From the NCBI GenBank assembly GCA_022560615.1, contig JADFSR010000001.1:124001-188000 (forward strand): DNA of 64,000 nucleotides. Direction: 5' to 3'. How positions within the stretch are numbered: the first letter of the stretch is position 1; every line of letters starts with the position of its first letter. The notes below the pieces were generated by a model. That model was not told the origin of the DNA. It ran no database searches and was given only the letters and a program-made list of their open reading frames with translations. Position numbers and translations under genes: made by a program. Below, one piece after another: positions 4,194 through 14,443 of the stretch. This DNA is from Gemmatimonadota bacterium (GTDB lineage Bacteria; Gemmatimonadota; Gemmatimonadetes; Longimicrobiales; Gaopeijiaceae).

Positions 4194-5201
4194 ATGAACC
4201 AGCGATTCCAACTCATCGTCATCGGTGCAGGCCCGTGTGGCATCGCTGCAGGCGCGGCCGCGAAGAAGGCCGGGGTATCGTGTGTGCTCTTCGACAAAGG
4301 GTGCGTTACGAGCTCGCTCATGGGCTATCCCTACTACATGACCTTCTTCAGCACCGCGGTGATGTTGGAGGTCGGCGGTGTCCCGTTCACCATCCCAAAC
4401 TCGAAGCCGACCCGTCGGGAGGCGCTCGCGTACTATCGTAGGGTCGTCGAGCACTGGGACATCGATGTGCGACAGTACCAGAAGGTCGAAGCGATCCACG
4501 GCGGCGAGGGCGACTTCACGCTCGAAACGAGGAAGGCGGACGGCACGGAGGAGACATACCACGCCGCCGCGGTCGTCGTCGCCACCGGAAGTTTCGACCG
4601 GCCGAACCTGCTCGGCGTGCCGGGAGAGGATCTCGACAGGGTCCACCACTACTACCGCGAGCCCTACGCCTACCACGACCAGGACGTGCTCGTCGTCGGC
4701 GCGGGCAACTCAGCGGTCGAGTCCGCGCTCGACATGTACAGGAACGGCGCGCGGGTCACGATGGTGCACTTCCTCGACAAGATCGATCGAGGCGTAAAGC
4801 CCTGGGTCGTGCCCGACATCACGAATCGCCTGGAGCGAGGCGAGATCGGCGTGCATTGGAATAGCCGCGTCGCCGAGATTCGTTCTTCGTCGGTCGTCGT
4901 CCGTGACGAGGCCACCGGCACCGATACGGAGATTCAGAATGACTTCGTCGTCGCGATGACCGGGTGGCGGGCGGACCACACGCCTCTTCAGACGCTAGGC
5001 GTCGAGATCGACCCGGAGACGGGCATTCCGACGCACGACAAGGCGACCATGCGGACGAACGTGCCCGGTCTCTACATCGCGGGCGTGATCGCGGCAGGAC
5101 ACAACGCCAATAAGATCTTCATCGAGAACGGCCGAGAGCACGGCGACCTCATTGTGGCCGACTTGCTGGCGAGGGCAGCCGGCACGTCGGACGGCAGCTA
5201 G
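4194..5201 (+). CDS. ypdA: YpdA-family FAD/NADPH disulfide reductase (putative bacillithiol disulfide reductase)
   Basis: A 335-residue flavoprotein. The N-terminal VIGAGPCGIAAGAAAKKAGV is the FAD-binding Rossmann motif, and a second nucleotide-binding glycine motif, VVGAGNSAVESALDMYRNG, lies near residue 165. The CVTSSLMGYPYYMTFFST block after the first motif is characteristic of YpdA proteins rather than thioredoxin reductase, and no CxxC redox pair is present. YpdA (Bdr) reduces bacillithiol disulfide in Firmicutes, which suggests that this organism may use bacillithiol or a related thiol. That last step is inference because no bsh gene is in the window. The gene stands alone with a divergent neighbour upstream. 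Confidence 0.85.
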   Translation: MNQRFQLIVIGAGPCGIAAGAAAKKAGVSCVLFDKGCVTSSLMGYPYYMTFFSTAVMLEVGGVPFTIPNSKPTRREALAYYRRVVEHWDIDVRQYQKVEAIHGGEGDFTLETRKADGTEETYHAAAVVVATGSFDRPNLLGVPGEDLDRVHHYYREPYAYHDQDVLVVGAGNSAVESALDMYRNGARVTMVHFLDKIDRGVKPWVVPDITNRLERGEIGVHWNSRVAEIRSSSVVVRDEATGTDTEIQNDFVVAMTGWRADHTPLQTLGVEIDPETGIPTHDKATMRTNVPGLYIAGVIAAGHNANKIFIENGREHGDLIVADLLARAAGTSDGS

Positions 5202-6723: not shown

Positions 6724-9615
6724 CTAGTTCATCCAGTCGTCCTCGAGCACCCGCACGGACGTCGTGTACTCTTCGCCATCCACAGAGAGTGTCACGTTGT
6801 AGACGCCCGGCTGGGCCTGCGGCCCCTGGCGGCCGCCTCGCCCTCCGCCTCGCCCTCCGCCTCGCCCTCCGCCTCGCCCACCACCTCGCCCACCACCTCG
6901 ACCTCCCGGGGGCGGATCGCCTCGCAGGTTCCACTGTACGCGGTTGAGGCCGGCCATCCCCGTGCCCTCCATGGTCCGGAAGACCTCGCCGGTCACGGCG
7001 TTGGCGATAGTGATGCTCACATCGCCCTCGGCCGCCTCGTTGAGCCAATAGTCGATCGCGCTTCCGGTCGGCGCGTTCTCGCCCAGCCAGTTTTTGTCAC
7101 CCGTGACGGCCCGGCTCCGCGTCCGGCGGTTCCTCCACTGGACCGACTCGCGCGGCTCGTAGAGGTGCACATCCTTCGCCATGGTCTCACCGGTGGTGGC
7201 CTGCAACGAAGTGATGTCGTCCATGATGTAGACGCTGCGCCCGTGCGTCGCGAGCACGAGGTCGTTGTCCCTGGGATGGACGAGCACGTCGTCGATCCGC
7301 ACGACCGGCAATCCATTCATGAACCGCGTCCACTCCTGCCCCTCGTCGCGCGAGATGAAGAAGCCGAATTCCGTGCCGACGTACAGGATGTCCTTGTTGC
7401 GAGGGTCCTGACGGACCGTGTTCACGTTCCCGAAGTCGGGCAGGTTCGAGCTGATGCTCTCCCAGGTCTCACCGTAGTCGCGCGTGAGGTAGACATACGG
7501 TCGGAGATCGTCGGAGCGGTGTCCGTCGACAGACACGTACGCGGTCGCCGCATCGTAGTGAGACGCCTCCACCCGCGACACGTAGTACTCCGTCGTGCCA
7601 CCGGGCAGGTTTCGACTTACCTCGGTCCACGTCGCGCCGCCGTCACGACTGACGTTGATGTTGCCGTCGTCGGTCCCCAACCAGAGGACCCCGGGCAGAA
7701 CCGGGGACTCGGCGATCGACACGCCGGTGCTCCACTGGGACACGCCGTCGTTGCGTGAGAGGTTGCAGTCGATGCCGCGGTCGAGCTGTCTACAACGCGG
7801 CACGTCGATCCCCACGCCCATGAGATCGATCCCATCCCGGTCGACGTTCTTGCTGAGGTCGGGGCTCATCGTCCACGTATTGCCGCGGTCGCGTGAGATG
7901 AAAAAGCGGTTCGCCGCCACGTATACCGTGCTCGGGTTGTGGGGCGAAAGCACGATGGGCGTGTTCCAGTTGAAGCGAATCTGAGTCTCTGCGGGAGGTT
8001 CGGGAACGATGTTCGGACCGCGGCCTCCTCCTAAGCCACCGCGGCCGCCGCCACGACCACCGCGGCCGCCCGGACCGCGTGGACGGATGCTCTGCTGGTC
8101 ACCGGTCTCGAGGTCGTACCGGTTCACGTTGCCCCCCTGGGACTCGGAGTAGATGATGTTCGCATCGGTCGGGTCCTGCTGCGTGTAGAAGCCGTCGCCG
8201 CCTCCGACACGGAACCAGTCCTGCGCGAGGATCGGGCCGGACCGGACCGAGCTCGGACCACACCAGGTGCCGTTGTCCTGGAGGCCGGTGCACACGCGGT
8301 AGGGGCGCTGCATGTTCACCGACGCGTGATACGGCTGCCCGATCGCCCAGCTGCGCAGTGACTCCCACGTCTCACCCTGGTCGTAGCTGACATCGATCGA
8401 GCCGTCGTTCCCGATCATCAGGTGATCGTGGTTGTTCGGGTTGATCCAGATGGCGTGCTGGTCAACGTGGCCAAAGCCGTCGAGCGTCTCCCAGCTCTCG
8501 CCGCCATCCCGTGACTTCGCGACCCGCTGATCGACCGTGTACACCAGGTCGGGGTCTTCAGGGGAGACGCGGATCTGACTGAAATACATCGGGCGGCCGT
8601 TCTCGTTGCTGCGAAACTGCCAGCTCTCGCCACCGTCGGTCGAACGCCAGATGCCGTTCCATTGGTGGTCGGGCGGGGGGTCGTCCTCTTCGGCCAGCGC
8701 CTGCCACGCCGCACGATCGTCGTCGCTGAGCGGACGCTCCTTGTCCGCCGCGACCTCGATCTGTGCGTAGATGACGTTGGGGTCCGCCGGTGTCGTGGCG
8801 AGCGCGATCCGACCCATCGTGCCGTTGGGCAGACCATTGCCCTCTAGCCGGTTCCAGTTCTCGCCGCCGTCCGTGGACATCCAGATGCCGCTCCCGGATC
8901 CGCCTCCCACGAAGCAGCATCCGCTCCGACGGCGCTGGTAGGTCGCGGCCAAGAGCTTGCGGGGGTTCGACGGGTCGATGATCAGGTCCGTGGCGCCGGT
9001 GTTGTCATCGACGCGCAGAACGTGGTTCCACGTCCGACCCCCATCGCTCGTCTTGAAGATCCCACGCTCCGCGTTGGGCCCGAAGAGGTGACCGTTGGCC
9101 GCGATCCAGACCGTGTTCGCGTCCGTGGGATGCACGATCACGCGCGCAATCGACTGGGTCTCACGAAGCCCCACGTACGTGAACGAGTCTCCCCCATCCG
9201 TAGACTTGTAGACGCCGGCCCCGAACGAAGAGCTCTGGCGGTTGTTCGATTCCCCCGTGCCGACATAGATCACGTCCGTGTTCGAAGGCGCGATCCCGAT
9301 CGCGCCGATAGAGTGGGTTTCGTATTCGTCGAAGATCGGCTCGAACGTCGTGCCGTTGTTCGTGGTCCTCCACAGCCCGCCGGTGGCGAAGCCCACGTAG
9401 TACCTGAACGGGTTAGTCGGATCGACCGCGATATCGTCGACGCGGCCGCCCTGTCCAACCGGGCCGATCGACCTCCACATGAACGGGCGCAACAGCGGGT
9501 TCGTTGATTGGTTCAGGACCGCCATGTCGCCGTCCTGTGCGACGGAAGCCGCAGGTAGCGACCAGGTCGCAGCGAGTAGCAGCAGGCTCATTCGGAGGAA
9601 GGGCGAACCGGTCAT
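6724..9615 (-). CDS. Secreted VPS10/sortilin-like BNR-repeat protein
   Basis: A 963-residue protein starting at the ATG at 9615, which has GGGAG six bases upstream and is followed directly by a signal peptide ending at ASVAQ. An upstream in-frame methionine at 9720 would bury the signal peptide, so I rejected it. About ten Asp-box (BNR) motifs of the type S-x-DGG-x-x-W are spread along the protein (STDGGDSFTY, TSDGGRTW, STDGGENW, SRDGGATW and others), indicating one or two beta-propellers of the VPS10/sortilin type. Two arginine-glycine-rich tracts occur, one mid-protein and one near the C-terminus. Members are often labelled glycosyl hydrolases, but no catalytic evidence supports that label. 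Confidence 0.85.
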   Translation of the reverse strand: MTGSPFLRMSLLLLAATWSLPAASVAQDGDMAVLNQSTNPLLRPFMWRSIGPVGQGGRVDDIAVDPTNPFRYYVGFATGGLWRTTNNGTTFEPIFDEYETHSIGAIGIAPSNTDVIYVGTGESNNRQSSSFGAGVYKSTDGGDSFTYVGLRETQSIARVIVHPTDANTVWIAANGHLFGPNAERGIFKTSDGGRTWNHVLRVDDNTGATDLIIDPSNPRKLLAATYQRRRSGCCFVGGGSGSGIWMSTDGGENWNRLEGNGLPNGTMGRIALATTPADPNVIYAQIEVAADKERPLSDDDRAAWQALAEEDDPPPDHQWNGIWRSTDGGESWQFRSNENGRPMYFSQIRVSPEDPDLVYTVDQRVAKSRDGGESWETLDGFGHVDQHAIWINPNNHDHLMIGNDGSIDVSYDQGETWESLRSWAIGQPYHASVNMQRPYRVCTGLQDNGTWCGPSSVRSGPILAQDWFRVGGGDGFYTQQDPTDANIIYSESQGGNVNRYDLETGDQQSIRPRGPGGRGGRGGGRGGLGGGRGPNIVPEPPAETQIRFNWNTPIVLSPHNPSTVYVAANRFFISRDRGNTWTMSPDLSKNVDRDGIDLMGVGIDVPRCRQLDRGIDCNLSRNDGVSQWSTGVSIAESPVLPGVLWLGTDDGNINVSRDGGATWTEVSRNLPGGTTEYYVSRVEASHYDAATAYVSVDGHRSDDLRPYVYLTRDYGETWESISSNLPDFGNVNTVRQDPRNKDILYVGTEFGFFISRDEGQEWTRFMNGLPVVRIDDVLVHPRDNDLVLATHGRSVYIMDDITSLQATTGETMAKDVHLYEPRESVQWRNRRTRSRAVTGDKNWLGENAPTGSAIDYWLNEAAEGDVSITIANAVTGEVFRTMEGTGMAGLNRVQWNLRGDPPPGGRGGGRGGGRGGGRGGGRGGGRGGRQGPQAQPGVYNVTLSVDGEEYTTSVRVLEDDWMN
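6836..6906 (-). repeat. Short tandem repeat encoding an RGG tract
   Basis: About five copies of a 12-base unit, close to CGCCCTCCGCCT on the plus strand, lie in tandem inside the BNR-protein gene. On the coding strand they specify repeated GGRGGGRGGG. The last two units carry the variant CGCCCACCACCT. A second, less regular RGG tract is encoded near 8006-8090 of the same gene. Confidence 0.85.
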
Positions 9616-9790
9616 GGTCCACTCCCTTGGATTGTTTTGGAAGAACTGGGGGAACGCCAAGATCGGCCCGAGGCCCGAATCCGTCAAACGCTCGGGGAAC
9701 CGGTGGGAGCACCTTGGCATTCAGCAGGATCCAGGCGTAGAGTGTCAGGATCATGATAGTCCACTTGGACGCACGAGCACGGAGAGCCGG

Positions 9791-10447
9791 ATGCGAAGGC
9801 GATACACGTTGACCCTCGTCGCGGCAGGCGTCGTCGCTTTGCTTGGGTGTGAGGGCGGGGATGAGGCGACGGAACAGGCCACGATGGACGAAGTGAACGA
9901 GGTCGTGTTGGGTCCGGTGGACGGACACGATCTACCACCGACCGACATCGATCGTGTGTTGGCGGGACAGATGGCACCCGACTTCTCAGCGACTTCCCTG
10001 GCGGGCCCCGTTGTCACGCTGTCGCAATTTCGCGGGGAGAAGAACGTCGTGCTGTTCTTCTATCGCGGCCACTGGTGACCCTTCTGCGCCAAGCAGCTCG
10101 GCGAGCTGCAAGACTTCCTGACGCCTGAGCAGCGCGAGACGACCGAGATCCTCGCGCTGTCCTCGGACGACCCCGAACAGCTCCAGATGATGGTCGACCG
10201 CGTGGCCGAGGAGGCCGACGGTTATGTCATCGACTTCACTCTGCTCTCGGATCCCGACGCGGCGATCATCAACCGGTACGGGCTCTTCAACCAAGACGAC
10301 CCGCGTGGACGTGCTATTCCGCACCCCACGGCGTATGTAATCGACAGGGAAGGACGGGTCCATTGGAAGTTCACTGAGGTGAACTACGAGATCCGTCCGG
10401 AGAACGAGGACATCCTGGCTGCCTTGGCGGAGATCGAGGGAATGTGA
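9791..10447 (+). CDS. Selenocysteine-containing lipoprotein peroxiredoxin (AhpC/TSA-like), UGA recoded at codon 96
   Basis: Read with the in-frame UGA at 10076-10078 as selenocysteine, this is a 218-residue peroxiredoxin-like protein. The N-terminus is a lipoprotein signal with lipobox LLGC (Cys20). The thioredoxin-fold domain starts at APDFSATSL and runs to the end. The UGA sits in FFYRGHW-UGA-PFCAKQL, at the position of the first cysteine of the YRGxWCPxC motif of peroxiredoxin-like proteins. It therefore gives a UxxC redox pair (Sec96, Cys99). Translation continues in frame with normal family sequence to 10447. A SECIS-like hairpin follows the UGA and selD is 3 kb downstream. It probably reduces peroxides at a periplasm-facing membrane surface. 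The start is ATG at 9791 with GGAG upstream. Confidence 0.88.
10093..10109 (+). promoter_or_regulatory. SECIS-like hairpin of the selenoprotein peroxiredoxin
   Basis: A seven-base stem GCAGCTC/GAGCTGC closes a three-base loop, GGC, that begins 22 bases after the UGA ends. The small apical loop with G in its first two positions and the distance from the UGA agree with bacterial SECIS elements, which are read by SelB. No folding program was run. Confidence 0.7.
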
Positions 10448-13360: not shown

Positions 13361-14443
13361 ATGACCAACGAGCCCCGGGACCAGAGGCCGAAGATTCGGC
13401 TGTCCCAGCTCAGTCACGGCGCCGGTTGAGCTTGTAAGCTCGGGATGTCCGAACTGACGCAGGTTCTGCGTCACGTCCTGCCGGTGGAAGATCCGAACGT
13501 GCTCGTCGGGCATACGACGGGCGACGATGCTGCCGTGTACCGTCTAGCCGACGACCGTGCCCTGGTCGTGACGGCCGACTTTTTCACGCCCATCGTCGAC
13601 GACCCATATGACTTCGGACGCATCGCCGCGGCCAACGCCTTGTCGGACATTTACGCCATGGGCGCGACGCCGCTCTTCGCGCTGAACCTGGTCGGCTTTC
13701 CAAGGGAGCTCCTCGGGGACGGCATTCTCGACGAGATCCTCCGCGGGGGAAGTGACCTGACCCGATCAGTCGGGATTCCCACTCTGGGCGGCCACTCGAT
13801 CGACGACGCCGAGCCGAAGTACGGCCTAGTGGCGGTCGGTGAAGTGCATCCGGACCACATGGTCACGAATGCCGGGGCCAAGCCGGGTGACGTCCTTGTT
13901 CTCACCAAGCCTCTGGGCTCCGGGGTGATCGCTACGGCGATCAAACAGGGCGCGGCGCCGGACGATGTGATCACAAGAGCCGTCGAGGTCATGGTGACCC
14001 TCAACGCGGGCGCCGCGGAGGCCATGCGAAACGCCGATGTCATCGCCGGAACCGACGTGACCGGATTCGGTCTTCTCGGTCATCTGCACAACATGCTGCG
14101 AGCGTCGGGAGTCGCGGCCACCCTGCGCTCGGCCGACGTCCCCATCATTTCGGGGGCGCGGGAGTTGGTCGAAGCCGGACACGTGCCCGGAGGCACCACG
14201 CGCAACCTGGAAGACCTGGCGGATAGCGTATCGTTCGCCGACTCCGTCGACGACTTCACCCGCACGCTCCTCGGCGACGCGCAGACCTCCGGCGGGTTGC
14301 TGATGTGCGTGTCCCCCGATGCCGTCGAGCCGCTGCTGCTCGACCTGGTGGATGGGCGGAGCCCTGTGGCAGCCGTGATCGGCGAGGTCGTGGAGGGTGT
14401 GGAGGGTGTGGAGGGCGGCGCGGGGCGGATCAGGGTCGAGTAG
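13361..14443 (+). CDS. selD: Selenide, water dikinase SelD containing selenocysteine (UGA at codon 23)
   Basis: SelD makes selenophosphate from selenide and ATP for selenocysteine synthesis. A conventional reading from the ATG at 13445 would lack the active site. From the ATG at 13361, preceded by AGGAGG, the frame reads MTNEPRDQRPKIRLSQL then SHGAG-UGA-ACKLGM, with the UGA at 13427-13429 at the catalytic Cys/Sec position of SelD and the essential lysine two residues after it (ACK). The 360-residue product then shows the GDDAAVY, TADFFTPIVDDPYDFGRIAAANALSDIYAMGA and DVTGFGLLGH blocks of the family. A SECIS-like hairpin follows. The gene overlaps the convergent FkbM gene by 14 bases. Confidence 0.95.
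13455..13473 (+). promoter_or_regulatory. SECIS-like hairpin of selD
   Basis: A perfect eight-base stem TGACGCAG/CTGCGTCA closes a GTT loop, so the top of the hairpin reads G-GTT-C. The loop starts 34 bases after the UGA ends, within the usual bacterial range. The guanine at the start of the loop is the feature normally recognised by SelB. Confidence 0.75.

Follow-up and report, generated by a model that had tools for sequence, protein, structure and literature searches.

The window analysed here, a 64,000-nucleotide stretch of a Gemmatimonadota genome, carries a gene (positions 9791–10447, forward strand) in which an in-frame UGA is very probably, indeed close to certainly, decoded as selenocysteine (Sec). 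The product appears to be exported and to combine a UxxC motif with a peroxiredoxin (Prx)-like fold. The whole is best explained, with a probability of roughly 0.85, as an envelope Prx-like thiol/selenol oxidoreductase with a protective or repair duty.

An in-frame UGA within a Prx-like gene

The features of the gene used below are the following.
9791–10447, forward strand: predicted selenoprotein gene, 218 residues with Sec96; PF00578 Prx-like domain from residue 59
9781–9786, forward strand: GGAGAG, likely ribosome-binding site from sequence reading, 4 bases 5′ of the ATG at 9791
10076–10078, forward strand: UGA, assigned by sequence comparison as the Sec96 codon, first position of UxxC
10085–10087, forward strand: Cys99, second position of UxxC, aligning with the peroxidatic Cys of AhpE/PrxQ

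The frame opens with the ATG, ends on a terminal UGA (10445–10447) and contains one internal stop, the UGA at codon 96, which sits in a YRGHW-U-PFC motif. With this UGA read through, the product contains a complete AhpC-TSA domain (PF00578, 99.7 bits against a cut-off of 26, E = 1.5e-28). Each half also matches the profile separately, the part before the UGA over profile positions 2–38 (E = 1.6e-7) and the part after it over positions 39–123 (E = 9.4e-14). The first-pass annotation had described a frame running on to a proper end, which standard gene calling would report as a truncated protein and a separate fragment; both descriptions are borne out, ordinary calling giving 9479–10078 and 10187–10447. 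No NCBIfam model exceeds its own cut-off for the selenoprotein, so ordinary annotation is expected to split the gene in two wherever it is present.

Comparative evidence for selenocysteine

In an alignment of 24 Gemmatimonadota orthologues (52–100% identity over the match; the named relatives are metagenome-assembled genomes), the UGA occupies the identical codon of YRGxWUPxC in all 24, with WUIYC in L054, and the UxxC motif is likewise present throughout. Judged from their substitution pattern, the 122 codons after the UGA are under purifying selection: they evolve as protein, with pN/pS values against the window gene of 0.14–0.76 (median 0.41) and a median of 0.47 over all pairs. Cys replaces Sec as TGC in L115–L117 and as TGC/TGT in L128/L129, and the remaining orthologues and homologues have UGA. 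Sinorhizobium and Alicycliphilus have plasmid-borne 'peroxiredoxin-like family proteins' that also have Cys at the Sec site, in FYRGGWCP[FY]C. The UGA had been proposed to fall on the first Cys of a YRGxWCPxC motif, and alignment of the joined translation to homologues, the check suggested for it, confirms Cys at that site. Relatives keep the sequence after the UGA, rather than having a stop with no conservation downstream.

The gene was found in 86 of 395 Gemmatimonadota genomes, nearly every full-length match having one in-frame TGA. SelA is present in all 82 genomes with the UGA form versus 205 of the 309 without the gene (Fisher p = 3e-13, uncorrected for relatedness). In G346 the SelA match is weak and partial; one UGA-form genome (G163) has SelA and SelB with no tRNA-Sec match over the cut-off, perhaps owing to an assembly gap. 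The three Cys-form genomes (G092, G122 and G298) belong to one genus and have TGC at the site, within YRG[FYS]WCPYC. SelA was found in none of these three, and SelB is below the cut-off in each. Since the Cys clade is nested within the Sec clade in the tree (support 98/87), Cys most likely replaced Sec in this clade.

A conserved hairpin downstream of the UGA

10093–10109, forward strand: putative SECIS hairpin, stem 10093–10099 / 10103–10109, loop GGC 10100–10102

The hairpin (GCAGCUC-GGC-GAGCUGC) has a 7-bp stem and a GGN loop, and begins 14 bases 3′ of the UGA. Alone it is weak evidence, because by the same rule a stem of at least 7 pairs lies at the same distance after 102 of the 1568 UGA triplets in the window (6.5%). 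An Rfam search over the 64-kb window at gathering scores returned no match. Folding the hairpin, as had been suggested, gave a divided answer: the single-sequence test is not significant, a 60-mer folding no better than its shuffles (z = +1.15), but the pairing is kept across relatives. Across all 36 distinct Sec sequences, five stem pairs show no change at all, even though the Gln CAG and Leu CTG codons in which they fall would be free to vary. The outer pair, which joins codons of variable residues, covaries (GC in 18, UA in 16, AU in 1 and unpaired in 1), and 97.6% of cells in the hairpin alignment are paired; since the 36 sequences are related, these counts do not represent independent events. 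None of the three Cys forms retains an intact hairpin; in L117 the changes that disrupt it are synonymous and leave the peptide QLGEL as it was. Synonymous breakage in a Cys form, together with invariant and covarying pairs in the Sec forms, indicates that selection acts on the hairpin RNA and is tied to the UGA. It is this conservation and covariation that make the hairpin evidence strong, and the SECIS-like hairpin with a G-starting loop noted in the first pass is upheld.

Selenocysteine machinery

13361–14443, forward strand: selD (TIGR00476, 392.5 bits), with its own UGA for Sec at 13427–13429 (HGAGUACKLG, catalytic loop)

The genome from which the window comes contains selA (contig C36), selB (C38) and a tRNA-Sec with anticodon UCA (C15). 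Locating selA, selB and selC had been suggested as a check on the Sec reading, and none of them is absent. The tRNA-Sec model also gives matches above the cut-off in 5 of 14 control genomes; for this reason, presence and absence were scored by SelA and SelB. The UGA of selD is also present in the SelD loci of all 11 relatives read. The open reading frame listing begins selD late, at 13445.

SelA was found in 287 of the 395 Gemmatimonadota genomes searched, and Sec use looks common in the phylum. The first pass had called a membrane-anchored selenoperoxiredoxin notable in this kind of bacterium; Sec use as such is not rare there.

In the same genome, UGA takes the place of the Cys codon in two further Prx-like genes, one at C7:41265 (FFRGRWUPYC) and one at C2:3240-3674 (FSRGYYUPKD), the latter lacking the second Cys. 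A relative in the same order has a different Prx-like gene with FYRGRWUSHC (L072, G037:C37:18502-18906), likely a further Sec family member; it forms a very long branch in the tree and was left out of the orthologue count.

Taken together, the shared UGA, the conservation after it, the hairpin, the Sec machinery, the co-occurrence with SelA and the Cys forms make Sec decoding of the UGA very probable, about as firmly as sequence allows. The reading of the UGA as a true stop, in which the locus would be a pseudogene, carry a sequencing error or yield a secreted fragment of 95 residues, agrees with the standard code and with a hairpin that alone is within chance, but is extremely improbable: more than 80 genomes share the UGA, the half after it is conserved, homologues have Cys, and the co-occurrence with SelA is perfect. 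Equally improbable is recoding in which a suppressor or an altered code would insert Cys or Trp at the UGA: Cys is indeed the residue in relatives without SelA, but the genome has a full Sec system including tRNA-Sec(UCA), genes here and in relatives also terminate in UGA, and decay of the hairpin coincides exactly with the change from UGA to TGC.

Fold and active site

10322–10330, forward strand: His-Pro-Thr, cis-Pro-like motif replacing the Prx catalytic Arg; HP[TA] in aligned orthologues

Among solved structures, the AhpE and BCP/PrxQ peroxiredoxins are nearest, both in sequence and in predicted fold. The AlphaFold model, built on 219 letters of which the last is the true stop entered as C, is closest to AhpE (TM 0.82–0.88 on target). 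In the alignment to AhpE, Sec96 occupies the position of Thr and Cys99 that of the peroxidatic Cys; Arg stands in for the motif Pro, and Pro179 for catalytic Arg116. When TlpA-like relatives are aligned, the first Cys of their WCGPC corresponds to Sec96. The predicted model thus has the peroxiredoxin fold, and in place of the classical PxxxTxxC/U motif and catalytic Arg the protein has RGHWUPFC and Pro. The UxxC motif and Pro loop correspond, as read from these alignments, to the arrangement of a thiol-disulfide oxidoreductase on a Prx frame.

Because Sec lies at the Thr of PxxxTxxC and Pro replaces the catalytic Arg, the protein appears better named a Prx-like UxxC thiol/selenol oxidoreductase than a classical Sec-peroxiredoxin. 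It had been called a peroxiredoxin at first, a description that fits the fold, which is nearest to AhpE, and fails at the active site, with its Sec on Thr, Pro for Arg and thioredoxin-like UxxC. A classical Sec peroxiredoxin, in which Sec96 or Cys99 would be the peroxidatic residue of PxxxTxx(C/U) and the enzyme chiefly an H2O2 scavenger, would fit the fold, the nearest structures AhpE and PrxQ/BCP and the alignment of Cys99 with the peroxidatic Cys. We consider it unlikely, in view of RGHWU in place of PxxxT, Pro179 aligned with the catalytic Arg, and the TxxU motif of known Sec-Prx (PMC13188914).

Glutathione peroxidase was rejected as a candidate, with no GSHPx Pfam match and the motif UPFC rather than UGxT. 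A search of a viral collection gave no match.

Prx-like UXXC selenoproteins of this kind have been reported since 2005, when a family was described in Sargasso Sea data (PMC1088965). The GOS survey has 'Prx-like 1' selenoproteins in its Table 2 (PMC2398784), and Table 1 of a 2026 review names 'Prx-like thiol:disulfide oxidoreductase' selenoproteins (PMC13188914). These UxxC/UxxU proteins, whose listed representative is WP_010940744.1, share with the window protein PF00578 and Sec first in UxxC. The window protein is exported, has a GPxDG linker and is Gemmatimonadota-wide, traits that may set it apart from the known members. Two NCBI 'peroxiredoxin-like family proteins' (WP_246452637.1 and WP_013521175.1) share the motif, an xPA loop and 27–29% identity, and differ in having Cys for Sec and in that a hydrophobic N-terminal segment and GPxDG were not found in them. 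AhpE of Mycobacterium tuberculosis, a 1-Cys peroxiredoxin, has a Thr/Cys/Arg active site where the window protein has Sec/Cys/Pro. The Sec peroxiredoxin PrxU also has Sec in a peroxiredoxin fold, but at the peroxidatic position (TxxU), and the window protein scores 36 bits against the PrxU model (cut-off 270). The TlpA/ResA oxidoreductases share WCxxC at the same site, the Pro loop and an envelope location, although the domain overall is closer to AhpE/BCP.

Export and likely membrane anchoring

9791–9850, forward strand: predicted signal sequence ending LLGC (Cys20), likely lipobox; hydrophobic stretch and Cys, in near orthologues too
9911–9925, forward strand: GPVDG motif, linker between signal and redox domain

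Export is a well-supported trait of the family, to judge from a hydrophobic N-terminal segment in all 49 Gemmatimonadota orthologues read. The GPxDG motif is also found in all 49, whereas two proteobacterial Cys homologues lack it. Signal types were assigned by visual inspection and simple rules. Many orthologues have a lipobox-like Cys (LVGC, VAGC and LAAC in near relatives); the others, without this Cys, have a membrane helix or a cleavable signal ending like AxA. The LLGC of the window protein is slightly off the textbook lipobox [LVI][ASTVI][GAS]C. The initial designation as a lipoprotein is likely right for the window species, with a lipid anchor on Cys20, but does not extend to the family, only part of which would be anchored in this way.

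Gene neighbourhood

4194–5201, forward strand: putative bacillithiol disulfide reductase of the YpdA family, possible partner (TIGR04018, 418.4 bits, cut-off 339.9)

The order selenoprotein, YgfZ, SirB1-like and selD is kept in nearer relatives and lost in the distant relatives read. Between the YpdA gene and the selenoprotein gene, positions 6724–9648 on the reverse strand encode a BNR repeat protein of the Sortilin/Vps10 type, which has a low-complexity stretch rich in Gly and Arg (GRGGGRGGGRGG) close to the C-terminus.

The protein could instead work with YpdA in a bacillithiol circuit. The window YpdA exceeds the NCBIfam cut-off, and in L029, L031 and L032 the selenoprotein gene is immediately preceded by a YpdA-type gene, which is on the same strand and ends about 100 bases or less away; such a gene is near in L028, L030 and L078. 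However, export of the selenoprotein is not matched by YpdA, which begins with a Rossmann motif and has no signal; the two genes are 4.6 kb apart in the window, and the pairing is absent from the more distant relatives read. Such a circuit is thus improbable, and a functional tie to YpdA is a lead only.

Proposed mechanism

For an envelope Prx-like thiol/selenol oxidoreductase, we propose the following scheme. SelB and Sec-tRNA(UCA) would read the UGA at 10076–10078 as Sec, directed by the hairpin 14 bases downstream. The product would be exported and, in the window species, probably tethered to the membrane through a lipidated Cys20. Its peroxiredoxin-fold domain would present a thioredoxin-like active site, Sec96-Pro-Phe-Cys99, with the His-Pro-Thr loop. 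Most likely, Sec96 would attack an oxidised substrate, either a hydroperoxide or a disulfide in some other protein of the envelope, and Cys99 would resolve the intermediate by forming an Se-S bond, the order of steps being taken from the family. An envelope thiol relay may then reduce the Se-S bond. We suggest the name 'exported Prx-like UxxC selenoprotein'.

Implications

The open literature we searched holds almost nothing on selenoproteins of Gemmatimonadota. The gene described here probably adds an exported branch, spread over one phylum, to the already known Prx-like selenoproteins. It also offers a natural experiment, in that one clade lost SelA and SelB, its UGA became TGC and its hairpin decayed. 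More tentatively, and with the odds somewhat against it, Gemmatimonadota may have an old exported Sec redox system, in which a membrane-held Prx-like UxxC envelope selenoenzyme with its own electron supply would persist while the Sec machinery does, and would become a Cys enzyme once that machinery is lost.
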